Source: Citrus sinensis
Taxonomy: Eukaryota > Streptophyta > Magnoliopsida > Sapindales > Rutaceae
Direction of reading: 5' to 3'
Length of the DNA: 64,000 bases
NCBI RefSeq assembly: GCF_022201045.2
Contig: NC_068559.1
Location: 2,950,501-3,014,500, forward strand
A program made the translations under genes and the position numbers. Under the pieces are notes generated by a model. It was not told the DNA's origin. It saw nothing but the letters and a program-made list of their open reading frames with translations, and did not search any database. Positions 31,306-46,507 of this stretch are shown here, one piece after another (the stretch's first letter is position 1; every line of letters starts with the position of its first letter).

Positions 31306-32463
31306 TTATGCAAAATTAGATATTGCAACATCCTTCAGCTCTGTCTTCATGAGGAAGACATTGGTGAGAGCTGTCTTTGACTTCAAAGAATTCTTCAACA
31401 GTTCCAGACCCTGAATGGAATGAAAAACATTAAGGCAAAAATCAACGTTGCTACATGTCCTTCATTCTTACCAGAAAAGGGGATAAAAGCCTCAGAAAAT
31501 CCAATCTTGTTCCCATCTTTTAATTATTTCAAGTTCTTTTAAGTCATGGAAAGTAGCTTTCCTTTGGCTAATTCAAGAAGAATTGCCATGAATAGAAATC
31601 ATTTGACAGAAGCAGAAATTTAATACACATAGGACCATTTGGCATGACATCAAGTATATTTCAATATAGATTATACTTTGTTATAATTGTGATTTTAAAT
31701 TTTGTTACACTTTCTAGTTTATTCTAAAACATGTGCCAAAGCACATCCCAACCATCCAACAAGAATGAAAAATTTGAAGGCATTGTTGTGGAGAAAAATT
31801 CAAACAGAATTAGAAGACATACGTAAACTCCATACCTCATCAATGCCAAGCTCAACAACCCTTTTCTCCAGCACACCAATATCCTTAACATTGTGCTGTA
31901 GCAGTTCAATGCCAGATGTCATTGACACTGGAGTCACTGATAAATCATCCGATACCATATATGTAACCAAATTCTTCACAACACCTCCCTCACCAGCTGA
32001 AGGTTTCTTGCAGTTGCAAGTGGAAATTCCTGAATCAACAAACAGGTCAAACCTCAAGCGGCAGTCCATCAGAAGAGAACAATTTTTGCCAGGACAATTT
32101 GTGTTTGCAGCATCTGACATAATCGTGGTTTACACATCTGTAGAAAACGTTTCCCTTAAATGTTGGACTAGCTTCAGGCAGCAAGGGAGGAGCATTGAGG
32201 GCAGCTGTTACATGGCGTTTCAAGAGGTCATCTTTATTCTGATTTGGTTGCAAGTAAGCATCATTCAGGTTTTCAAGGCTCTGATACAGATTATCTACGC
32301 ACCCCAATGTGCTGCCATTCTTGAGGAGCCTGATGACAGTACTAATAGGCAAAGAAAGGAGATTGAACAGAAAATCCACAAAATCTTTCTTGGCCTCTGC
32401 TATGATAACCTTGTTAGCTCTTTTCTCTATTATTAATGTCAGCTTCACCTTAGTTGTTTCCAT
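31306..32463 (-). pseudogene. DUF674 gene with one frameshift
   Basis: The exon structure copies the intact gene: exon 1 31836-32463 and exon 2 31306-31410 (also 105 nt), with GT-AG sites. Exon 1 starts METTKVKLTLIIEKRANKVI and IAEAKKDFVDFLFNLLSLPI. After the triplets for VNHD (about 32119-32122) the family sequence continues only in another frame (MSDAANTNCPGKNCS..., then NLVTYMVSDDLSVTPVSMTS). Exon 1 is 628 nt, not a multiple of three, against 633 in the intact copy. The end GLELLKNSLKSKTALTNVFL is intact. It lies in inverted orientation to 28366-29422, about 2 kb away. It is either a young pseudogene or an assembly error at one base. Confidence 0.8.
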
Positions 32464-35400
32464 CGTTGATACTGATAAAGAAAGGTATAAATATCAGTTT
32501 AGCTATTTGCTTACCTGATTGGTCAAAATTTTCTAGTGTATGTATATTAGACTCTGCATCCAAGTAGAGGTTAACCCACAAGAGAAATGAAGATTTTTAA
32601 CCATATGAGACCTTGTGGAATCAGACATTGTATTTGAAAATATCATAAACCCTCAAAGCCACTAACATTTAATAACAAATGAGGACCATGCATTATTTAT
32701 TTATTTATTGATTTTTTAAGTCATAAAGGTTTCACATGGTAATACATGATAAAGATGTATATGATAAAAAACCATTATAACAGTTAAATTTTGGGAGATT
32801 ACAGGTCCGTTTGTGATTTAAGTTGGGCAGCTGCAGTTTAAAAGCTACAATAGAAAGTGTTTGGTAAACACTAGCTACTATACCTTGAAAGATATGTTGA
32901 TATGATTTTTCACTTGTATGATGGAAAACCTATTGTATCTTTAAGAATTTTATCAAGATTTTTATTTATTTATATTTACTACTTATTATTAACTTTTATT
33001 TCATAATTACAGTTTTTTTCCACGGCAGCTGTAACTTAAAAGTTAAGTTACAGCACCTCAATCCCAAATAGGACCTAAATCATCTACGATCATCAATTTC
33101 CCAAAATCATCAAAAGAAAATATTATTGAATAATTTTATTTATCCACATGATCAGGCTTGTGCATTTTACGTTGTTGAAAATATAACCAAGCAGTATATA
33201 AGGTTCTAATTAATAAAACTGACCCATAAGTTAAATAACATAAACAATTTGGTAAGCCAATTCTTCCTAAAAAGAGATAAGAGAAACAATTTGACGAAGC
33301 TAGAAATTAATTGACATCAAAAAGTTTCGTTAATACCAGATAGTCTCAAATCAAGCATAAATAAAGGAAGGAAAAAGGATTTCCACCAGGAAATATGCAA
33401 AAAGATTAATTTTTTTAACACATCAATCTAAAATAATTTGAAGAATTAAACAATCGGGCAAAGTTAAGATCTTGTTTCTTATTTTTATTTATTACTTCAC
33501 CGAAGCAAAGAGAAAATTCTGAAAATCCCTAATGCACCAATTTGATGGCAGGACATAAAACCCAGGCTCTAATTAAATCTTTAAAAAGGGTACAAACAAG
33601 AAAAAAGGCACCGAGGGTTATACACAAGCATCCACATATTCATTTTGTTATGAATGAATGAAGAAAAATGTCAACTTTCTCAGCATCCAAACAAATAGAC
33701 CATTCACTACTACATCTACTTGCCACCACAAACACAAATACATACACATACACACATGTATAGATACATACAGTCAAGTATATATGAAAATGACTGTGAA
33801 ACTAATAACGTACGTACCTGCTGGTCTCCTACTACAGTTCAGTTTTCCTTTTCTTCTGTTAATCTTGTTTGACAAAACCTTGAACCTTTATCTGTGACTG
33901 AGCGAGCAGCCTATTTCTTTGCTTGCATTTACGAGGATTTAAGCGGGAAAAAAAAGGAGAAGCTGGGAGGCCCAGTGGGGGCCCATTGACATTAACCAAG
34001 TTTTGGAGAAAAATGGTTCTTTAAGGTGGGGAAAAAAAATGGAGAAAAAGAAAAAATGATTTTTTTTCTTTATTTAAGGAATAAGGAAAAATTGTAAAAA
34101 CGTAGAAATTGGCAAATAGGAGGACTATCGACAAAACATAAAATTTGTAAGCAGTAAAATGGAGACCAGTGAAATAAGAATATGTGGCATCAAAATATCA
34201 TCATCATCATCAGGAGACGAGAAATGGTCAAGGCATTGTTTCATTGAAATTGAAATACATACATACTTAGCTAATTCTAGCCAAACTCAACAACCTTTTT
34301 TTCTCGAATGCACAATGATCCGTGTGATTGTGCTTCGGCAGATCAACTGTAGATGTCATTAAAATTAATTGGAGTCACTTACTGAAGCTTCCATGAAAAT
34401 GCCTTGATTCCACAATTAAGACTATATGCATACATATATACACATGATTAATGCATCAGCACTTACAAAACACTCAGTTTCACATTGGCTTGACTCGTTA
34501 CACTGTGTACCATCAGGATCATTTGTTATCTCATCAGCATTTGTACATACGATACATTAATCAAGCCAAGCATTTGGAATCAATCTAACGATTATTGGGT
34601 TTTGAGTTCTTTATAGTTCAGTAATAAATCAAGTAAAATCCCATAACTTAACTTTCTGAACTATTATTATTCTTTGTTATTTATCATTTTCTCCAAATCT
34701 TGGTCAATGGTTGGCCCAGCGAGCTTCCTCATAGGAGTCAGTAAAGGCTCAACAGTGATGAGCTCAATCAAGATCCTAACACGAACCTGGCAAATGGTAA
34801 TAGTTAATGTACCTGTTCTGTACAGTTTACCCGCTTTAAATTTTTGTAGCAAGCAAACATTTTTCCTTTTTCCTTGGAAAGGAAGTAAGCAAAAGACTCA
34901 ACTGCCGAGAAAACAAAGTCTATAGAATAAATAATATTTGCCAGATAAAAATCATAATATCTCTGGCGTTTTTCAACTCTCCAGGCAAGAAGTCAAAAGA
35001 AAAAAAAAATAAAAAACCTAAAAATTTGAAAAAGACTAAAATGTCCTCTGTTTTTTTCTTTTTACAATTTTACTGCAAATCATTGTTGACGTTTTCTTTG
35101 GTATTCCGTTTAATTTGTGGCAAAACGCGTGGTGAAAGCATACATTTGTAATGTGATTTTTATTAATTTTATATTAGGAAAAAAAAATTGCTGAAAGACC
35201 TGACAGTGATGGCTAGAGTGACAGGCTGACGGGCTTGCAGGCACTGGGAGACAGGATCAAGATGATGTTGACTTACTCCCCAAGTATTTATTTGTCTATT
35301 AGAATGCTCAAGAGTGTCAAGTGGTTTCATTTTTGTCCATAAAAATGACGTCGCTAAGAAGAGTAAGAAGAGGAATGACAGAGGTATGCAAACGTCCATA

Positions 35401-35882
35401 CTTTCTGCATCTGTTCGAATATATAATTATTTTTGTGATAGTATATGTAATTACGTATCAATATCTGAGCTAAAAGGGGCAAGTTCTGTTTGGATGTTGA
35501 GAAACTTGGACATTTTTCTGTGGTCCATTCTTAAGAAAATTAGGACGTGGTTACTTGTAGATGGCTTGATGGGTTTTCTTTTTTGCGCTTGCATATAAGC
35601 ACCTCCATTCTTTTTCCTCTTTTCCCCCCCCTGTAGCGAGCATTCTGAAGTACTTTCTAATACAATACCTCTAATAAGTAATAGTAATAAAGGGTTTTTT
35701 GACAGAGGAATGGAAATTGGGGGTTCGCCAAAAGACGTGCTTCTAATTTGAGGGGCGTAGAACAAAACCAGGTAGCATTGTCATGATATAGTAAAAATAT
35801 GATGTTGAATATCCTACATTTCGAATTAAGAATTTATTGTGTTTATTTTTTTTTAACGTATGTCTTCTCACAGGTACTGAAA
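32464..35882. other. Spacer between DUF674 pseudogene and DUF1985 chimera
   Basis: It holds a family A MITE (32814-33075) and a stretch at 34627-34711 that recurs at 44452-44537. No exon could be supported. An open frame on the minus strand at 34667-34852 is unidentified. Confidence 0.5.
32814..33075. mobile_element. MITE, family A, copy 3
   Basis: Ends GGTCCGTTTGTGATTTAAGT and ...CACCTCAATCCCAAATAGGACC are inverted. The interior shares GATATGTTGATATGA and CTTTTATTTCATAATTACA with the other two copies. Confidence 0.75.
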
Positions 35883-37965
35883 ATGACTGAGAGTTCAATT
35901 CAGATAGATGTTTTGTCAAAATTACATGCACTTGATAGGATTAGACGCAAGCTAACAGAGACACAGAAGCATCTATTTAGAAAGCAATGTTTTCGGTATT
36001 TTCTAGACTTGCAACCCCTAACCTTTCAAGCAACACTTGTGCATAGTGTGCTACTCAGGATGATTGAGAATGGTCCAGAGTTACGTACCACTAATGAGTT
36101 ATGGTTCTCAATAGATGAAGAAACTACCATTAGATTTTCAGAAGGAGACTTTGCTAAGATGACTGGTCTTGAAGTTGGAAATCCTGAGAGGTTTGATTGC
36201 AAGTTAAAAACTGATTCAACTAATTCTATTTTAGACAGACTAGAGGGTTTGGATATGAAAACATTTGATGTTATAATTGAGAGTATAGACTTTACGGAGG
36301 AGGATGATACAGTTGCTGTAAAGATTGCACTTGTTTACGTCCTTGAGAGGGTTTTGATGGGTAATCTAGGACACACAAAAATAGCTAAAGAGAGGTTGCG
36401 GTTAGTTGATAATTTGGATGAGTTCAACAAATATCCTTGGGGAACTGTCTCATACAAAAAGACAATTGAATCACTTCAGAAAGCAGGGAGAACAAAACAA
36501 TGCAGATACAGTCTTTGCGGGTTCCCTTATGCATTTCAGGTGTGATTTAAAAAACTTTAGTTTTCATAGATTAATTTATAATGGTTATCTTGACTTAATT
36601 ATCCTACAATCAATGTAGATTTGGTTATACGAGATCAGCCCCTTTATTGCAAAAACATATGCGGAGAAGATCGTAGGATCAGAAAATATCCCGTGTATGT
36701 TTAAATGGGCTGCGAAGACTCCTCGTTCTTATGCGGAGCTGAAGAAAGCTTTTAATGAGAAAGGGGTAAGATATCTTATATTATTTACTTGTGATTTATA
36801 TTAAAAAACCATTTGATTACTTGATATGTACATGAATGCAGTTGATTCCTGATGTGATTTTGTTGGAGCATCAGAAAATAGAGAACGTAAATGTGGCCCA
36901 CCATGATGCTTCGACCAGTACTGCTCATCAGGTCTACGCACAAACACCTCCATATATGCTTTCCTATGGTTTAATTAGTTCTTTCTTAAACAACTTCTTT
37001 TTGCTTTACTTTTGGCTGTGGCACAATGCATCAACTCATATTAAAGGTATTCTTACTCAATCAACACCTTAAAAATGCAGAGCGAAAATGATGATAGAAT
37101 AAGTACTTCTGATTTAATTGGTGGTCGGCCATCGAAAAGGAGATTGTGTGATATTAAGAGCCCCTGTGTGAACTTTCTTAACCCCACTGGTTCCACCACG
37201 ACTTTAGAGGAACCTTCAAATAATGTGGAGGACCAATTGCCTGACGAGCATCTTCCGATCGAAGCAGTGGCTCCCCATGATGCCAATAGTAACAAGGTTA
37301 TATTCTCATTGTAGAGTAGTTAACTCAATAGCCTGCTTTCCTGCCGTTTCATTCTTTATAAATTAAAAAACTGTTTTCTTGTTAGGTTCATTTGGGTGGA
37401 GATCAGCCCAAGGATAATGTTGATGCTTATGTGAGAAACAGAGAGGAGGTATGCGCAAGATTAATTTTTGGTATTCATATTTGAAAGAGCTATACTACAC
37501 TTCCTAATGGCATTCACATATTTTCATTCCAAGGATTGAGGTGACTGGCATACATGATACTTCTATTAAATGGTCAATATTATTACTTCTAAAATTACTA
37601 TTGGTCAATCGCACCATTCATAGATAATTGTCGCTTGATTGGGATGAATAAGGTTAGGATATTATTTGGAAACTGTAGTATAAGTAATTTAGTATGTTTA
37701 AAGTATGCTTATTTGATTTTTGTATCTAACTATAATGCAGAGTGACAACTGTGAGGGAATGAGTATCCCTGATTTTGTCCATTGTGGTCTACCATTGAAA
37801 AAGAGAGTGTATGAAATAAGCCCTTGTGTCAACTTACCTACTAAGGTGAAGCTGACGCTAGTGGTAAACAAAAGCGCAAACAAAGTCATCTTTGCCGAAG
37901 CTGGAAAAGATTTTGTGGATATTTTGTTCAACATCCTTCGTTTGCCAATTAGTACTATCATACAT
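35883..37965 (+). pseudogene. DUF1985-DUF674 chimeric gene, 5' part
   Basis: Six exons, all in phase 0 with GT-AG introns: 35883-36539, 36619-36765, 36842-36931, 37081-37296, 37386-37448, 37741-37965 (cut by the Copia element). The first two exons encode a DUF1985-like domain: FRKQCFRYFLDLQPLTFQAT, TTNELWFSIDEETTIRFSEG, DFAKMTGLEVGNPERFD, NKYPWGTVSYKKTIESL. DUF1985 is common in plant transposon-derived genes that often also carry a Ulp1-type protease; no protease is seen here. The last exon passes through SISPCVN-like sequence into a DUF674 start: PTKVKLTLVVNKSANKVIFA then EAGKDFVDILFNILRLPIST. The DUF674 sequence resumes at 43374. Before the insertion it may have been a transcribed fusion gene; now it is broken. 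Confidence 0.72.
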
Positions 37966-38640
37966 TGTAGAATCTCAGGTGCTATAGACTGACAAAACAA
38001 CCCAAGATTCTGCCCCAAGACCTTAACCCAATAGAACAAGATGCAGCAAGATGTTTAACTGAAAAGCTACGACTAAGATGAACCTATGGAACTAGACAAT
38101 TAACTGATTGGAATTAAGAATATAAAAGGAAGTAATTAAAACAGAGAACAAAAGAATCTTAACGTGGTTCAGCTAGATTTCTCTAGCTTACATCCACGGG
38201 AGGGAAAGAACACAGCTTTATTGATTTTCTTTAGATGAATTACAGAGTAATGCTTAGTTTTTGAAGACAGGCAACAACTAGCTTTATATATAACCAGCTT
38301 CCTTCTCTCTCTTCAGCTCTCTCTGCTCTCCAATCAACTGCTTCCACATCAGCTGTTCCATAACAGCTTCTGTAAACGAACCCAGAAAAACTCCAGCACC
38401 TTACGTGAGTTCCTCGTGCTTCTAACGACAAATAACGAACTTTGCAAGCTGAGCTCAGACACGTGACATGTGCGTGCATCACTTAAATCTAAACGACAAC
38501 TCCATACGTCGTTCAGAAGTGTAATTCTTGTACACATCAAAACGCAGGTTTCTGTGCCGTTTTGAGCTTAAGTGTTTCCAGCTTCTAAACGCAAAGTCTT
38601 CTGCCGTTTTGGTTTTCTGGATTTGCTTTCACAAACAACA
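37966..38640 (-). repeat. Copia 3' LTR
   Basis: 675 bp, near-identical to the copy at 42699-43373. The one difference I noticed is TGATTTTCTTTAG here (around 38229) against TGATTTCCTTTAG in the other. Confidence 0.95.
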
Positions 38641-38695
38641 ATTCTCCACCTTGAAACAAATCATCCCTGGTTTCTCCCTCCATTTCCAGAATGAA

Positions 38696-41600
38696 TTACC
38701 AGCAGCCGAGACCAGCTATGTCCAAGCAAACCTTGAACTTAGCTGTAGTGACTACTTTTGTTAACATGTCAGCAGGATTTCTGTCTGTATGTATCTTCAC
38801 CATTCTGACCACACCCATGGAAACTACATTTCTAATGAAATGCAGCTTAATGTCAATGTGCTTTGTTTTCTCATGATGAGCTGGGTTTTTACTCAAGTAA
38901 ATGGCACTTGAGCTATCACAGAATACATCAACTGTCTTCTGACTCATTCCAAGCTCAGCTATCAAGCCTTTCATCCATAAGGCTTCCTTTACAGCTTCAG
39001 CAGCTGCTGTATACTCAGCTTCTGTTGTTGACAAAGCAACAACATGCTGGAGACTCGCCTTCCAGTTAATCAAACAACCATCCAGCATGTATAGATATCC
39101 TGTGAGTGATCTTCTTCTGTCTAAGTCCCCTGCAAAGTCAGAATCAACAAAACCACTGATCCCCTCAGATTTGATCCTTGACTTACCATAAACCAGCCCC
39201 TGGTTCAGGGTTCCACTTAGGTATCTCAACACCCATTTTACAGCTCTCCAATGTTCCTTTCCAGGAGACACCATATATCTGCTCACTACACTTAGAGCAT
39301 AGGAGATATCAGGCCTAGTTAGAACCATAGCATACATCATGCAGCCAACTGCATTAGCATAGGGAATCTTAGCCATCTCTAATTTTTCTTCTTCTGTTTT
39401 TGGACATTGCAAGCTGGAGAGCTTAAAATGTGTTGCTATTGGAGTCATCACAGGTTTACATGAGGTCATCCCAAAGGTTTCCAGTACCCTTCTCAGATAT
39501 TTCTCTTGAGAAAGAAACATAATGCCTTTGCTTCTATCCCTCTTGATCTCCATGCCTAGTATCTTCTTTGCTGACCCCAAATCTTTCATCTCAAATTCAG
39601 AACTCAGCAAATTCTTCAAGGCTTCAATTTCTTCTCTTGACTTACAAGCTACCAACATATCATCTACATATAGTAACAGGTATATGTAGAGATTTGTACT
39701 TATTACCTTGTAATATACACAGCAATCAAAACTGCATCTCAGGTATCCATGTGACAGCATGAACTCATCAAACCTGAGATACCATTGCCTTGGAGATTGC
39801 TTGAGCCCATACAGTGATCTTTTCAGCAAGCAAACATGATTTGGTTTCTCAGAATCCACATACCCCTCAGGTTGAGTCATAAGAATTTCTTCCTGTAGTC
39901 TTCCATGTAAAAATGCAGTCTTGACATCAAGTTGATCAAGCTCTAAGTCATGAACTGCAGTCATTGCTAACAATACCCTTATGGAGGCATGTCTGACCAC
40001 AGGGGAGAATACCTCTTTAAAGTCAACTCCTTCCCTTTGAGTATACCCCTTTGCTACCAGCCTAGCTTTGTACCTTTTAGGTTCACTAGCTGTGAGGCCT
40101 TCCTTGACTCTGAAAACCCACTTGCAACCCACTGTCCTTCTGTTACCAGGTTTATCAATCAATATCCAGGTGTGATTCTTTTTAAGAGAAGCTATCTCAT
40201 CATTCATAGCCTCCTGCCATTCTGATTTGTTTGAGCTTTGAATAGCCTCAGCATAACTCTTGGGTTCATCTACATCAATATCATGTGAAGCAGCCAGTGC
40301 ATATGCTATCAGATCAGCATACCCATATCTCTGTGGTGGTCTGATTTGTCTTTTTTCTCTATCTTTTGTCAGCTGATAACCCTGTACTTGAGTCTGCATC
40401 TGAGATTTTGGTTGAGGGCCACTGCATTCATCATGATCTTCACTGTCTTTATCTGAATTGTCATCCCTCTCAGGTTTCTTTGAATCAGGATGCTCCACCT
40501 CAAATTGGATGTCTTCTTGCACTTGAGGTTTCTGAGTTTTCAGCCCAATATCCTTTCTGATTTCCAAAACAGCCTTCTCATTGAATGCCACATCTCTGCT
40601 TATTATGCACCTTGGAGGTTCTAGATCAGTGCACCATAGTTTGTATCCTTTAACTCCATCAGGATAGCCTAGGAACTGACCTTTAAGAGCCCTGGGTGCT
40701 AACTTTCCTTGATTGATATGTGCATAAGCAGGGCATCCAAACACTTTAAGATTAACATAGCTTGCTGGTTTCCCATGCCACATTTCAAATGGAGTTTTAA
40801 AGTCTAGAGCAGCAGAGGGACTCAAATTCACCAGATAACTTGTTGTTAATAAGGTTTCTGCCCAGAGACTTTTTGGAAACTTTGCTTGCACCAGCATGCA
40901 TCTCACCTTATCCATCAAGGTCCTGTTCATTCTTTCTGCTAATCCATTTTGCTGAGGTGTTAACCTCACTGTTTTATGCCTTGCTATCCCTTCATTTGCA
41001 CAGTAGCTGTTAAATTGCTGATTGCAGAACTCAAGTCCATTGTCTGTTCTTAACTTCTTAACCTTTTTTCCAGTCTGATTTTCAACTAAGGTTTTCCATT
41101 CTTTGAATTTGTTAAAGACTTGATCTTTGTGCTTCAGTACATAGACCCAAACCCTTCTTGAATAATCATCTATTATTGACAAAAAATAGCTATTTCCACC
41201 TAATGAGCTTGTCTGTGCAGGCCCCCAGAGATCAGAGTGTATGTAGTCTAGGATGCCAATAGATTTGCTGGTTGAGTTTTTGAAACTGTGCCTTGTGGAC
41301 TTTCCATATACACAATCTTCACAAAAATCTAACTCATCTATCTTATCCTTCCCCAGAACCCCTTGTTTCTCAAGTTCTTTTAACCCTTTAACACTCATAT
41401 GCCCCAATCTTAGGTGCCACAGCCTGGTGCTTTCCCCACCAGTGCCAACAATTACATCTGTTGTTCCTGTAATTGCCTCACCATCTAGGACATATACTCC
41501 ATTTCTTTTTGATCCTTTCATCACTATCTTAGAGCCCTTCATGATAAACAATCTACCAGATTCAAGCTTAACACTAAACCCATTCTGATCTATCAAACCT

Positions 41601-42661
41601 AGTGAGATTAAGTTTCTCTTTAGATCAGGAACATATCTGACCTCTCTAAGTTCCCAAATTGTCCCATCATGAAGCCTAAGACTTACATTTCCCATGCCTA
41701 TGACTTTACATACAGCATTGTTACCCATCATTACTTTTCCCCCATCTAAATCATGGTAATCAGAGAAATAAGTTTTAAATGGGCACATATGAAATGTGCA
41801 ACCAGAATCTAGTATCCATTTACCTCTCTGGAGATCCTCTGTAGCCACACATACACCAGCAGATTCATAGCCTTCTTCCTCCACAATAGCTGCATCACCA
41901 TTTCTTTCTTTATTTTTGTTCTTTAGTTCTTGACAGTCTCTCTTGAAGTGGCCTTCTTTGTTACAATGAAAGCACTTCTTATTTTGTGACTTTGACTTGT
42001 CTTGCTTTTGTTTCTTCTTCTTTCCATCATTTTTGTTAAACTTACCCTTAACTGATAACCCTTCAGCATGCATCATATTCCCTGATTTTTCTTGTAGCCC
42101 TCTAGTATTCAAGGCAGCCTTAACCTCATCTAATGATAAGGTTGATCTTCCATACATAAGGGCATCCACAAGATTTGAATAAGACTGAGGTAGAGAGCTT
42201 ACCAGAAGCAATGCCTTCCCTTCATCATCCAGCCCCTCATCAATGGTTTCAAGTGTGTCACAAACTTGATTAAATTCATCGATATGATCATCCAGAGAGG
42301 ACCCTTCTGCCATCTTCAGTGTGAACATCCTTCTTTTGATATACAACCTATTAGCCAAAGATTTAGTCATGTAAATCTTTTCTAATTTGGCCCATAGGTC
42401 TGCAACAGTCTTCTCCTTGGCAACCTCCCTTATCACTGAGTCACCAAGACTCAATATGATGGTGCTTCTGGCCTTCTTGTCTATCTCAGCAGCCATTTCA
42501 GGTGTCTTGGAGGATGATTCTTCTTTCCCTTCTTTCTTGGTGACAGGTTCGAGTGCATCTCCTAGCCCCTGTGTTATCAGCAAGGCCTCCATCTTTACCT
42601 TCCACATGTTGAAATCATTCTTGCCAGTAAACTTCTCAAGATCGATCTTGGTTGAAACCAT
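38696..42661 (-). CDS. Copia gag-pol polyprotein, uninterrupted
   Basis: One open frame of 1321 residues from MVSTKIDLEKFTG. In order: a UBN2-type Gag region, a zinc knuckle (CFHCNKEGHFKRDC), an aspartic protease (WILDSGCTFHMC), GAG-pre-integrase (LWHLRLGHMS), integrase core (HSDLWGP, LRTDNGLEF, PQQNGLAERMNR), reverse transcriptase (QLDVKTAFLHG, LYGLKQSPRQW, YLLLYVDDMLVA) and RNase H (GFVDSDFAGD, LSTTEAEYTAAAEA). The order protease-integrase-RT-RNase H defines Ty1/Copia. All catalytic motifs seen are intact. The open frame can be extended upstream to 42772, but that part runs through the primer-binding site and LTR, so the ATG at 42659-42661 is chosen. The product would mediate reverse transcription and integration of the element. 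Confidence 0.95.
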   Translation of the reverse strand: MVSTKIDLEKFTGKNDFNMWKVKMEALLITQGLGDALEPVTKKEGKEESSSKTPEMAAEIDKKARSTIILSLGDSVIREVAKEKTVADLWAKLEKIYMTKSLANRLYIKRRMFTLKMAEGSSLDDHIDEFNQVCDTLETIDEGLDDEGKALLLVSSLPQSYSNLVDALMYGRSTLSLDEVKAALNTRGLQEKSGNMMHAEGLSVKGKFNKNDGKKKKQKQDKSKSQNKKCFHCNKEGHFKRDCQELKNKNKERNGDAAIVEEEGYESAGVCVATEDLQRGKWILDSGCTFHMCPFKTYFSDYHDLDGGKVMMGNNAVCKVIGMGNVSLRLHDGTIWELREVRYVPDLKRNLISLGLIDQNGFSVKLESGRLFIMKGSKIVMKGSKRNGVYVLDGEAITGTTDVIVGTGGESTRLWHLRLGHMSVKGLKELEKQGVLGKDKIDELDFCEDCVYGKSTRHSFKNSTSKSIGILDYIHSDLWGPAQTSSLGGNSYFLSIIDDYSRRVWVYVLKHKDQVFNKFKEWKTLVENQTGKKVKKLRTDNGLEFCNQQFNSYCANEGIARHKTVRLTPQQNGLAERMNRTLMDKVRCMLVQAKFPKSLWAETLLTTSYLVNLSPSAALDFKTPFEMWHGKPASYVNLKVFGCPAYAHINQGKLAPRALKGQFLGYPDGVKGYKLWCTDLEPPRCIISRDVAFNEKAVLEIRKDIGLKTQKPQVQEDIQFEVEHPDSKKPERDDNSDKDSEDHDECSGPQPKSQMQTQVQGYQLTKDREKRQIRPPQRYGYADLIAYALAASHDIDVDEPKSYAEAIQSSNKSEWQEAMNDEIASLKKNHTWILIDKPGNRRTVGCKWVFRVKEGLTASEPKRYKARLVAKGYTQREGVDFKEVFSPVVRHASIRVLLAMTAVHDLELDQLDVKTAFLHGRLQEEILMTQPEGYVDSEKPNHVCLLKRSLYGLKQSPRQWYLRFDEFMLSHGYLRCSFDCCVYYKVISTNLYIYLLLYVDDMLVACKSREEIEALKNLLSSEFEMKDLGSAKKILGMEIKRDRSKGIMFLSQEKYLRRVLETFGMTSCKPVMTPIATHFKLSSLQCPKTEEEKLEMAKIPYANAVGCMMYAMVLTRPDISYALSVVSRYMVSPGKEHWRAVKWVLRYLSGTLNQGLVYGKSRIKSEGISGFVDSDFAGDLDRRRSLTGYLYMLDGCLINWKASLQHVVALSTTEAEYTAAAEAVKEALWMKGLIAELGMSQKTVDVFCDSSSAIYLSKNPAHHEKTKHIDIKLHFIRNVVSMGVVRMVKIHTDRNPADMLTKVVTTAKFKVCLDIAGLGCW

Positions 42662-42684
42662 ACTTGTTTTTGGTTGTAGATCTA

Positions 42685-42696
42685 GCTCTGATACCA
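42685..42696 (-). promoter_or_regulatory. Copia primer-binding site (initiator tRNA-Met)
   Basis: TGGTATCAGAGC on the minus strand, two bases inside the 5' LTR, is the standard complement of the plant initiator tRNA-Met 3' end used by Copia elements. Confidence 0.92.
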
Positions 42697-42698
42697 AT

Positions 42699-43373
42699 TG
42701 TAGAATCTCAGGTGCTATAGACTGACAAAACAACCCAAGATTCTGCCCCAAGACCTTAACCCAATAGAACAAGATGCAGCAAGATGTTTAACTGAAAAGC
42801 TACGACTAAGATGAACCTATGGAACTAGACAATTAACTGATTGGAATTAAGAATATAAAAGGAAGTAATTAAAACAGAGAACAAAAGAATCTTAACGTGG
42901 TTCAGCTAGATTTCTCTAGCTTACATCCACGGGAGGGAAAGAACACAGCTTTATTGATTTCCTTTAGATGAATTACAGAGTAATGCTTAGTTTTTGAAGA
43001 CAGGCAACAACTAGCTTTATATATAACCAGCTTCCTTCTCTCTCTTCAGCTCTCTCTGCTCTCCAATCAACTGCTTCCACATCAGCTGTTCCATAACAGC
43101 TTCTGTAAACGAACCCAGAAAAACTCCAGCACCTTACGTGAGTTCCTCGTGCTTCTAACGACAAATAACGAACTTTGCAAGCTGAGCTCAGACACGTGAC
43201 ATGTGCGTGCATCACTTAAATCTAAACGACAACTCCATACGTCGTTCAGAAGTGTAATTCTTGTACACATCAAAACGCAGGTTTCTGTGCCGTTTTGAGC
43301 TTAAGTGTTTCCAGCTTCTAAACGCAAAGTCTTCTGCCGTTTTGGTTTTCTGGATTTGCTTTCACAAACAACA
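42699..43373 (-). repeat. Copia 5' LTR
   Basis: 675 bp, TG...CA ends, bounded by the primer-binding site on the inner side and by DUF674 coding sequence on the outer side. Confidence 0.95.
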
Positions 43374-43904
43374 GGTTTGGCAGGAATGCAAGCACATTTG
43401 GCTGCATTGAAAACTTGTACAAAAGCCTTGAACACTTTGACGAAGCTTACTTGGTACAAAATCAAAAGAGAGATATCCTCTTGAAACCCAATGTATTACA
43501 CATCCTAAATGTACTTTCCTTGAAGGCCCCTGAAGCCAGCTGTGATAAACTCATGAGGGAAGAATTTGAAAAATGTGAAGCTTCAGCTGGTGAAGAAGGC
43601 ACTGTGAAAAATTTGTTTACATACATGGTGACAGATGATTTGTCAGTGACTCCATTGTTGATGACATCTGGCATTATCAGTATGCTACTGAACAATCTTA
43701 GTGTGCTAGAGAAGAGGCTTGTTGAGTTAAGCAATGATGAGGTATGGATTGAGTTGAGCAATGTCCTAACCAATCGTTCAGAACTTTTAAGCTATGGTCT
43801 AATGATACTTTCTCCTTTATGTTCTATGTATCTTTCAGGTCCTGGAACTGTTGGAGAATGCGATGAACTCAAGGACAGCTCTCACCAGTGTCTTCCTGAA
43901 ATAG
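43374..43904 (+). pseudogene. DUF1985-DUF674 chimeric gene, 3' DUF674 part
   Basis: The DUF674 frame continues directly after the retrotransposon: 43374-43741 (starting GRNASTFGCIENLYKSLEHF after two bases that finish an Arg codon) and 43839-43904, joined by a GT-AG intron. It includes KNLFTYMVTDDLSVTPLLMT and ends VLELLENAMNSRTALTSVFL then K and stop. No stop or frameshift is visible in this half. The junction with 37741-37965 misses only the first base of one Arg codon, so the two halves belong to one gene that was intact until the recent insertion. Confidence 0.82.
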
Positions 43905-44576
43905 AATAGATGTGGCTGTTTCTAATTTCAATTAATTTTGTGTAAATACAGGCATCTCAGGAGTATTTTGCCAGGACAGCTTTAACTTATATATTGCTAT
44001 CGTATCTCTGTTTGATGTATGTTAGTACGCATACGTTCCTTTCCCCAGTGCTGCTGCTGTTAATTATGCTTAATGTTTATGGCCACTTGCGTTGTTAGTT
44101 TGAATCTAATATTCACTTTTCTAGTATCATAATTTATACAAAATTTAGTGTAGTTTTGAATATCTCCACTGAAAATAGTTCATAATTTCCAATATCCTAC
44201 TTTTAACTAATGTCTACTCAAATAGATAGATATCACAGTTTCTAATGTTAATGGATTTTGTTTTCTTCTGATTTCTGAAGCAAATTACTAAAAGCCGGAT
44301 TCCTCGCCTGAATTTGAGAACGTATTAAACAAGTATCATGTGGTATATATTCGCAACATTAAGGCCAACTTACTTGGTGAGTTCGTTCAGAGTGATCGTC
44401 TTTGTAATTCAGTAAAATCCAAATATATACCAATGTGTTTTAATGAACTAATATCAAGTAAAATCCCTAGCAAAAACTTTCTAAACCACTATTATTTTAT
44501 TTATTATTTTTCATTTTCTCCAAATCTTGGTTAATGGTAATCTTTCTAATAGGGCTCAACTGCCATTGTTCTTTGC
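43905..44576. other. 3' flank of the chimera
   Basis: AT-rich, no exon. The part at 44452-44537 is a diverged copy of 34627-34711 (shared ATCAAGTAAAATCCC and TTTTCTCCAAATCTTGGT). Confidence 0.5.
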
Positions 44577-45440
44577 CTAAATTAGAGAAATATTGATGAC
44601 TACACCAACTGCATGAGCAATAACTGATCTTGTATAAATCATGACATACATCAAACTGCCAACTACTAAAGTATAAGGAACTCTTCTCATCTTTTTCTTC
44701 TCTTTCTCACTTGTAAGATGATGCTCGGAGCTAAGCTTGAAATGACCTGCAAGTGGAGAATAAACAAATTTTGCCTTACACATGTTAAATCTTTCATGAA
44801 TCCTTTCAATATATGCTTCTTGAAATAATCATAACTTTCAAAGTTCTCTATTGTGGGAAATCTTCATGCCAAGAATCTGTTTAGCTGATCCCAAGCCCTT
44901 TATCGCAAAACATTTGTTAAGCTCTTTCATCAGATTATCAATTTCACTTGTATCCTAGCCAACAATCAACATGTCATCCACATAAAGTAAAAGAATGACA
45001 AAATCACTATCACCAAATTTCTTCACAAAAATAAAATGGTCAGACATAGTATTATTAAAACCATGATCCTCCATAAAAAGATTCAAACTTCTTATACCAC
45101 TGTCTTATTGCTTGTTTAAACCCATATAAACTTTTCTTCAACTTGCACATAAGTTCTTCTTTACCTTTGACATTGAACCCTTCGGGTTGTATATTTCCCC
45201 CTTTAAGTCACTGTGCAAGAAAGTTGTCTTTACATCAAACTATTTAGTCTCCAAATTCAAGGTAATTGTTAATCCTAGAATAATTCGGATAGAAGACATT
45301 TTTGCTACACAAGAAAATATTTCTTCAAAAGCAACACTTTTCTTTTGATCGAAACCCTTCCCAGGCAATCTAGTCTTATACCGGTATTGTGAGTTATTTA
45401 AAATGTTCAACCTATAAAACCACTTGTTCTTCCGAAACTT
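44577..45440 (-). mobile_element. Decayed Copia reverse transcriptase fragment
   Basis: On the minus strand, broken frames show Copia RT motifs: VILLLYVDDMLIVG (about 44965-45003), then KMRRVPYTLVVGSLMYVMIY (the stretch after the RT palm), near 44620-44700. Several frameshifts and stops separate the pieces. It is a different and much older copy than the element at 37966-43373. No LTRs were recognised. Confidence 0.75.
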
Positions 45441-46507
45441 GAAAAATAGGAGAATTTTTTGAGTGATAAGTGTATCACAAGTATTGCACCCAATTAATAT
45501 ATGTGTTAGGTGTAATTTAATTAAATATATATATGATAGTAATAAAGGGGAATTTTTTAAAATAAATATTAAAATAAATAAACATATGATAGTAATATTT
45601 TAATGTGTCACTATAATGTCACTTTTTATTAATCTTTTAGTTAACATTTTGAGACGTTAAATTTAAGATTCAATTTCACAAAACTTAGATTATCTTAGAT
45701 TATCATTAAGAATAAGGTTAATTTCTATCTAACTCTTAGTTAAATTGATCACATACTTCAATTTGGTCCTTATAAAATTTCTATATTTCCAATTAAGTCC
45801 AAGATTATTAAAAGTTTTTAAACACATAATATATTTGGAATCCCTAACATATTTCGAAAAACTACCAAATTAAGATGCTCTATTGTTTAGAGTGTCCTAA
45901 AAACAGAAAATAAAAATATCTAAGCTTTCCAATGATGTATGTCCATTATTATCATTTTTTTATACACACAATATGTACATTTTATATTTGGAATCTCTAA
46001 TATATTTTTAAAAAGATAGAATTTATATCTTTCCGAGTAATGTACGTCCAAGATTAGCAAATTCTGTAAGGATCTTAAAATATTGATTTTTGCTTTGTCA
46101 TCACTCTATATTTGAAAATTAAATTAATAGAATAATTCTAAACCAAAATTGCCCCTAAGTGCTCGGCCATGTGTTTTCAAACAGTTTTATTTAGCTGATT
46201 ATCTGAATTTGAATCTTTGAAGACGTTAATTGTAGAGAATAAAAATTGATGAGACTTTACCCGCCTCTCTATTTTTCTAATAATAATAATAATAAAAACT
46301 CTACACCAAAAATCAACGTCTAATTTATTAACACCAACATGTGAATTTGTATTGCTTAATCTATGCACCCAAGTTTACATTCAAATTAAAGAGTTTGTGA
46401 GGGAGGGAATAGGAGGGCCAAGGGAATTGGAGGATTGACCACATGAAATAGGAATTTTATTTATTAAAAAGCAAACGTGGTAGTGAATAGAGAAATGTAT
46501 ATGCATT
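45441..46507. other. AT-rich gene-free spacer
   Basis: Nothing recognisable beyond low-complexity AT sequence and an ATA/ATT microsatellite near 46277-46295. Confidence 0.5.

Follow-up and report, generated by a model that had tools for sequence, protein, structure and literature searches.

The locus described here lies in a window of 64,000 nucleotides of Citrus sinensis DNA, the whole stretch that was analysed, to which all plain positions refer. It consists of a chain of exons in which a DUF1985 domain is followed, in the same frame, by the beginning of a DUF674 domain, together with a copia-type retrotransposon that splits the sixth exon and further DUF674 coding sequence beyond the element. 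The features are as follows.

35883..36539, + strand: exon 1, with the ATG start and the DUF1985 domain (PF09331, 3e-18, residues 69-197); the sole open frame of six
36619..36765, + strand: exon 2, an extension common to DUF1985 relatives; AG/GT, phase 0; the sole open frame of six
36842..36931, + strand: exon 3, linker; AG/GT, phase 0; without a Pfam match
37081..37296, + strand: exon 4, linker; AG/GT, phase 0
37386..37448, + strand: exon 5, short linker and the least supported exon; AG/GT, phase 0; without a Pfam match
37741..37965, + strand: exon 6 up to the insertion; AG before it, frame open, DUF674 by Pfam (1e-12)
37741..37839, + strand: codons 1-33 of exon 6, by alignment a tandem duplicate of exon 4 that has diverged (score 92; 47% peptide identity)
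37840..37965, + strand: the remainder of exon 6, the DUF674 N-terminus without its own start codon (Pfam 1e-12)
37966..43373, - strand: copia-type retrotransposon splitting exon 6 (LTRs, 1363-aa frame, Pfam)
37966-38640 and 42699-43373: the copia LTRs, 675 nt each, with 1 difference
43376..43741, + strand: DUF674 coding sequence past the retrotransposon, with an internal segment missing (Pfam 7.5e-10 for 43379-43906); GT after it
43839..43904, + strand: last exon, 21 codons and the stop TAG; AG before it; in two neighbouring paralogs the second exon matches it at 86% and 81%
31340..32493, - strand: a frameshifted DUF674 paralog, the closest one in the window, used as the comparison sequence

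The six exons between 35883 and 37965 all have lengths that are multiples of three and are open in forward frame 0, each of exons 2-6 being preceded by AG and each of exons 1-5 followed by GT. The six phase-0 exons with GT-AG borders and no in-frame stop, as given in the original prediction, are confirmed by these lengths, frames and borders. By eye, the layout of the first intron and of the exon that follows it is the one seen in other DUF1985 genes of the genome, and in single BLASTP comparisons exon 2 matches the corresponding exon of two DUF1985 relatives, L064 and L053, at E 3e-05 and 0.003 respectively; its only Pfam hit, ECH_1 (E 0.19), is below the cut-off and at chance level. No Pfam family was matched by exons 3-5 or by the first half of exon 6. 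A protein search of the genome with exon 4 returned only itself and also missed the 47% identical copy in exon 6, so that it excludes close copies only. In exons 3 and 5 two minus-strand frames are open as well, and exon 5, which is 21 codons long and has no independent support, could be skipped with the frame preserved.

The DUF1985 domain (PF09331) in exon 1 scores 66.6 bits against a family cut-off of 35.1. In the genome searched (299.7 Mb in 11 contigs, with the window on contig C4) DUF1985 has at least 150 matches, the best 150 of 332 candidates having been scored, and in a protein search (best 150 of 386 candidates) none of the other 149 scored matches exceeds 39% identity with the window copy. 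At least 86 of the 150 scored DUF1985 matches are followed on their own strand, within 6 kb and mostly at about 2.5 kb, by a Peptidase_C48 match, and for none of the 150 does one lie only upstream, among the Peptidase_C48 matches listed (best 150 of 533 candidates). The usual pairing of DUF1985 with an Ulp1-type protease, named in the original prediction, thus holds in this genome. For the window copy, no Peptidase_C48 match was found within 100 kb on C4 among the best 150 of 533 candidates, and tblastx with three Peptidase_C48-containing stretches gave no match in the window. Among the matches listed it is therefore not KIU-like by a downstream Peptidase_C48 (VANC genes with Ulp1 are called KIU in the available text of PMC13317346). 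One close DUF1985 relative, L059, has Peptidase_C48 sequence downstream (3.9e-12). The window copy is also the only one of the 150 scored DUF1985 matches within 50 kb of a DUF674 match, among the matches listed. A structure model of the domain reached pLDDT 60 and pTM 0.57, and a fold search of the PDB with it gave no match at E 0.001 or better. Elsewhere on C4, at 19391704-19402005 (L064-L070), seven tandem DUF1985 copies lie 1607 bases apart, each with one TAA inside.

The many-copy character of DUF1985 with Ulp1 in this genome, and the capacity of such elements to capture genes (reviewed in the available part of PMC13317346), would fit an origin in which a DUF1985-carrying Mutator-like transposon captured a DUF674 fragment and then moved to this site. 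We find such an origin hardly credible, given that the fusion is located within the DUF674 array itself and that DNA searches with 34712-35882 and 36619-37448 returned this locus only and no other copy of the segment, common words being skipped in these searches so that they do not prove a single copy. Among inverted repeats of at least 20 bases, only short ones of 22-28 bases bracket the locus, none of them a long one that fits, and the window holds no MULE transposase among the best 150 of 899 candidates; some such elements, the non-TIR MULEs, are described in the same review, as far as available, as being without terminal inverted repeats. Two further repeats were noted near the gene: an inverted repeat (79%) at 33624-33693 / 35487-35558, just upstream of the DUF1985 exon, and an 84% direct repeat at 34628-34711 / 44453-44538 that flanks the whole fusion locus and has an inverted relative at 33985-34012.

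DUF674 matches, which are exon pieces and not genes, number at least 29 in the genome, with 24 of them on C4 at 2.978-3.099 Mb; the count is a lower bound, and the right-hand piece of the window is not among the 29. The fusion locus lies within this tandem array (C4, 2.98-3.10 Mb), and 18 of the 29 matches are free of internal stops. Both DUF674 pieces of the fusion exceed the Pfam cut-off for the family (PF05056, 24.4 bits), the left (37741-37965) with 48.1 bits and the right (43379-43906) with 38.7, smaller cuts of the right piece alone scoring 17.7 and 20 bits, below the cut-off. Together they cover profile positions 3-44, 54-85 and 132-225 of 445, the last two belonging to the right piece. 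The DUF674 frame does not resume in full beyond the retrotransposon, as had been claimed: the segment between profile positions 85 and 132 is missing, with no Pfam match to 86-131 in the fusion, three conserved cysteines are gone, and the protein ends early. Where all 10 open paralogs keep the cysteines C110, C126 and C129 (L008 numbering), the fusion has a gap, A and A; it retains P127, and H115 falls in a gap; a whole DUF674 domain with its conserved cysteines is not present. By hand count, the right piece lacks 36 residues relative to L008 in the stretch from LLKP to V(K/R)NL, and the fusion ends FLK* where two neighbouring paralogs continue further. A structure model of the DUF674 part was poor (pLDDT 43, pTM 0.26).

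On C7 at 16.825 Mb (L086:4750-4904) lies a solitary relic of the last exon, which belongs to the DUF674 lineage of the fusion and likewise ends in FLK*, in surroundings with frames that by eye resemble a hAT-type transposase. Since this relic has the same short end, the early stop is no fresh lesion. The possibility of a second fusion copy at this site was rejected, the 6 kb there containing the last-exon relic only.

The nearest paralog of both DUF674 pieces is the frameshifted one at 31.3-32.5 kb, at 77.9% over 122 bases for the left piece and 77.6% over 353 for the right, among 15 paralogs compared (14 fetched loci and this one). It is also the best match in the genome searches, except that the 90-base C7 relic is closer to the last exon. 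Because the nearest paralog is the same for both, the two pieces represent one gene split by the element. Codon comparisons drew on 10 open-frame paralogs and the frameshifted 32-kb one, with L004, L013, L014 and L017 omitted for short or broken frames; L003 was counted as open, there being no stop in the stretch used, though two stops are reported for its DUF674 match. The protein alignment comprised nine paralogs.

The element that separates the two pieces is of copia type, its 1363-aa frame matching RVT_2 (8e-47), copia-type gag (3e-34) and integrase in Pfam. At a substitution rate of 1.3e-8 per site and year, the single LTR difference would place the insertion below about 100,000 years ago. 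A genome search with the LTR gave at least 41 matches, its own two included (best 40 of 101 candidates scored). The sequences flanking the element, TACAT and GGTTT, do not match, leaving it without a target-site duplication. Ectopic recombination between copia copies in two DUF674 genes was considered for this absence and is not favoured, the left and right pieces sharing their nearest paralog and meeting at nearly the same place. In this allele the exon 6 frame meets a stop inside the LTR, and the gene as it stands would produce at most DUF1985, the linker and about 42 DUF674 residues. A second, decayed copia reverse-transcriptase-like stretch was seen by eye beside the gene, at 44560-45600 on the minus strand.

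The origin of the fusion is best read from exon 6, in which the two parts meet. From the last part of intron 5 through 33 codons of exon 6 (37665-37840), the sequence can be aligned to the last part of intron 3 and the beginning of exon 4 (37011-37180). This alignment scores 92, the highest score among 300 shuffles being 38, and the two copies are 47% identical as peptides. As judged by this alignment, the similarity to exon 4 shows that chance does not account for the open frame across the first half of exon 6. The duplication stops where the DUF674 homology starts. In the nearest paralogs that homology begins at 37840, and in none of 24 rows, with a query from 37800, does it begin before 37836 (some of these loci contain the same gene, and one row, W28, caught the 32-kb paralog, its stretch holding both); a genome search whose query began at 37449 gave a concordant result. 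The nearest paralog has its start codon nine bases ahead of the point where homology starts. From these comparisons the start codon of the DUF674 gene is gone, and a diverged duplicate of an exon of the DUF1985 gene stands in its place, in frame.

The DUF1985-DUF674 link of the original prediction is thus present in the DNA, whereas its mechanism, an exon-capture product, does not stand. The duplicated DUF1985-gene exon abuts the DUF674 coding start directly, and because the join lies within an exon, capture of an exon by splicing does not explain the fusion and capture at the level of introns is ruled out.

Two readings that dispense with a fusion protein have to be weighed against this junction. 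The DUF1985 gene might end before 37741 and be followed by a 5'-truncated DUF674 pseudogene, as two dead or separate units that were never spliced as one chain and whose open frame reflects luck or inheritance. The DUF674 part does lack a start, its internal cysteine segment and its tail, 11 of the 29 DUF674 matches listed for the genome contain internal stops, and 14% of random 33-codon stretches nearby have no stop in a given frame. We nevertheless consider this rather unlikely, as the homology between exon 4 and the first half of exon 6 takes in the acceptor, the phase is retained and the frame leads on into DUF674, and as the DUF674 frame is stop-free on both sides of the copia element. 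Alternatively, the duplicated exon could have provided merely a new start for DUF674 at the in-frame ATG at 37759 (MSIPD...), 27 codons ahead of the junction, giving a short new N-terminus and no DUF1985 fusion. This appears very improbable, in that an AG acceptor common to exon 4 lies 18 bases upstream of that ATG and the whole open DUF1985 chain is in phase.

Divergence between the two exon copies gives some idea of age, at K 0.44 for the intronic stretch and dS 0.59 for the exonic one. The original prediction had proposed dN/dS of the two halves as a check. For exon 4 against exon 6 the ratio is 0.54, with a 95% range of 0.18-1.77 that makes it uninformative; on the DUF674 branch of the fusion it is 0.45 (95% 0.25-0.83; 164 codons), a value that includes time before the join. 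The test had only three branches (the fusion, L008 and the paralog at 32 kb), and the other two, one of them the frameshifted paralog, gave 0.48 and 0.53. In a neutral simulation (2000 runs, indels ignored) the share of runs that left the DUF674 part without a stop was 36% at 0.05 substitutions per site, 12% at 0.1 and 2.35% at 0.2. Some constraint after the join is likely if join and exon duplication are of the same age; a younger join needs none. The further suggestion that the product was under selection until recently fits the branch ratio and the 1 difference in 675 between the LTRs, but the selection cannot be dated to the time since the join.

On balance we consider it fairly probable that this is a chimeric gene formed at the DNA level by a non-homologous join within an exon and later split by the copia element. 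The fusion appears real at the DNA level, and was probably once spliced and translated and is now disrupted. Its history would begin with a DUF1985 gene free of the protease, of the type found in Mutator-like elements with Ulp1, inside the DUF674 tandem array. The alignment above shows that its linker exon 4 was tandemly duplicated along with the end of the preceding intron, and the junction shows that the 3' part of the exon copy is replaced in frame by a DUF674 gene, starting a few codons past that gene's own ATG. The repeat-prone linker would offer a simple route, an exon duplication followed by a break that joined the copy to the coding start of the next gene. The DUF674 part would then have been made as the tail of a DUF1985 protein by way of five phase-0 introns, the joined frame probably being under some constraint for a time, before the recent entry of copia into exon 6.

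Whether such a protein had a use is a separate matter. Lacking its start codon, cysteine segment and tail, the DUF674 part may be a passenger, which counts against the chimeric reading, and since this tail has lost conserved residues any function would be expected in the DUF1985 half. The anti-silencing role in the literature is that of other DUF1985 members and not of this gene. We think it unlikely that copia-free alleles or relatives hold a working gene in which a protease-free DUF1985 from transposon anti-silencing factors and a DUF674 tail from the neighbouring array are kept together by selection. In the literature covered, without preprints and with few subscription papers, the text available holds no report of a protein with DUF1985 and DUF674, and papers naming both list them separately; judged from this literature, and not from plant protein databases, the pair may be undescribed. 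The kind of event is otherwise ordinary, and the fusion looks broken in this genome. What the locus provides is a base-by-base record of a transposon-type gene with a repeat-prone linker acquiring a host domain in frame.

Among known systems, the DUF1985 half is closest to VANC and KIU of VANDAL-type Mutator-like elements. In the available text of PMC5735166, VANC proteins are anti-silencing factors of VANDAL elements, with DUF1985 as one of the two domains drawn, and their variable regions often contain tandem repeats, to which exon/intron changes are tied; the repeated linker exon of the fusion resembles these repeat-bearing regions. In contrast to VANC and KIU, the fusion has no Peptidase_C48, transposase, long inverted repeats or second copy among the matches listed, and carries a C-terminal DUF674. 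The DUF674 half resembles the plant tandem family PF05056 in that both pieces score above the Pfam cut-off and lie in the C4 array, whereas its own start codon and the three-cysteine segment are absent, its tail is shorter and it stands downstream of DUF1985. Like the plant chimeric genes attributed to recombination or exon shuffling (PMC13317346, as far as available), the fusion brings portions of two unrelated genes together in a single open chain. It differs from them in its join, which lies within an exon after a tandem exon duplication, and in the introns it has kept, because of which there is no sign of retroposition.
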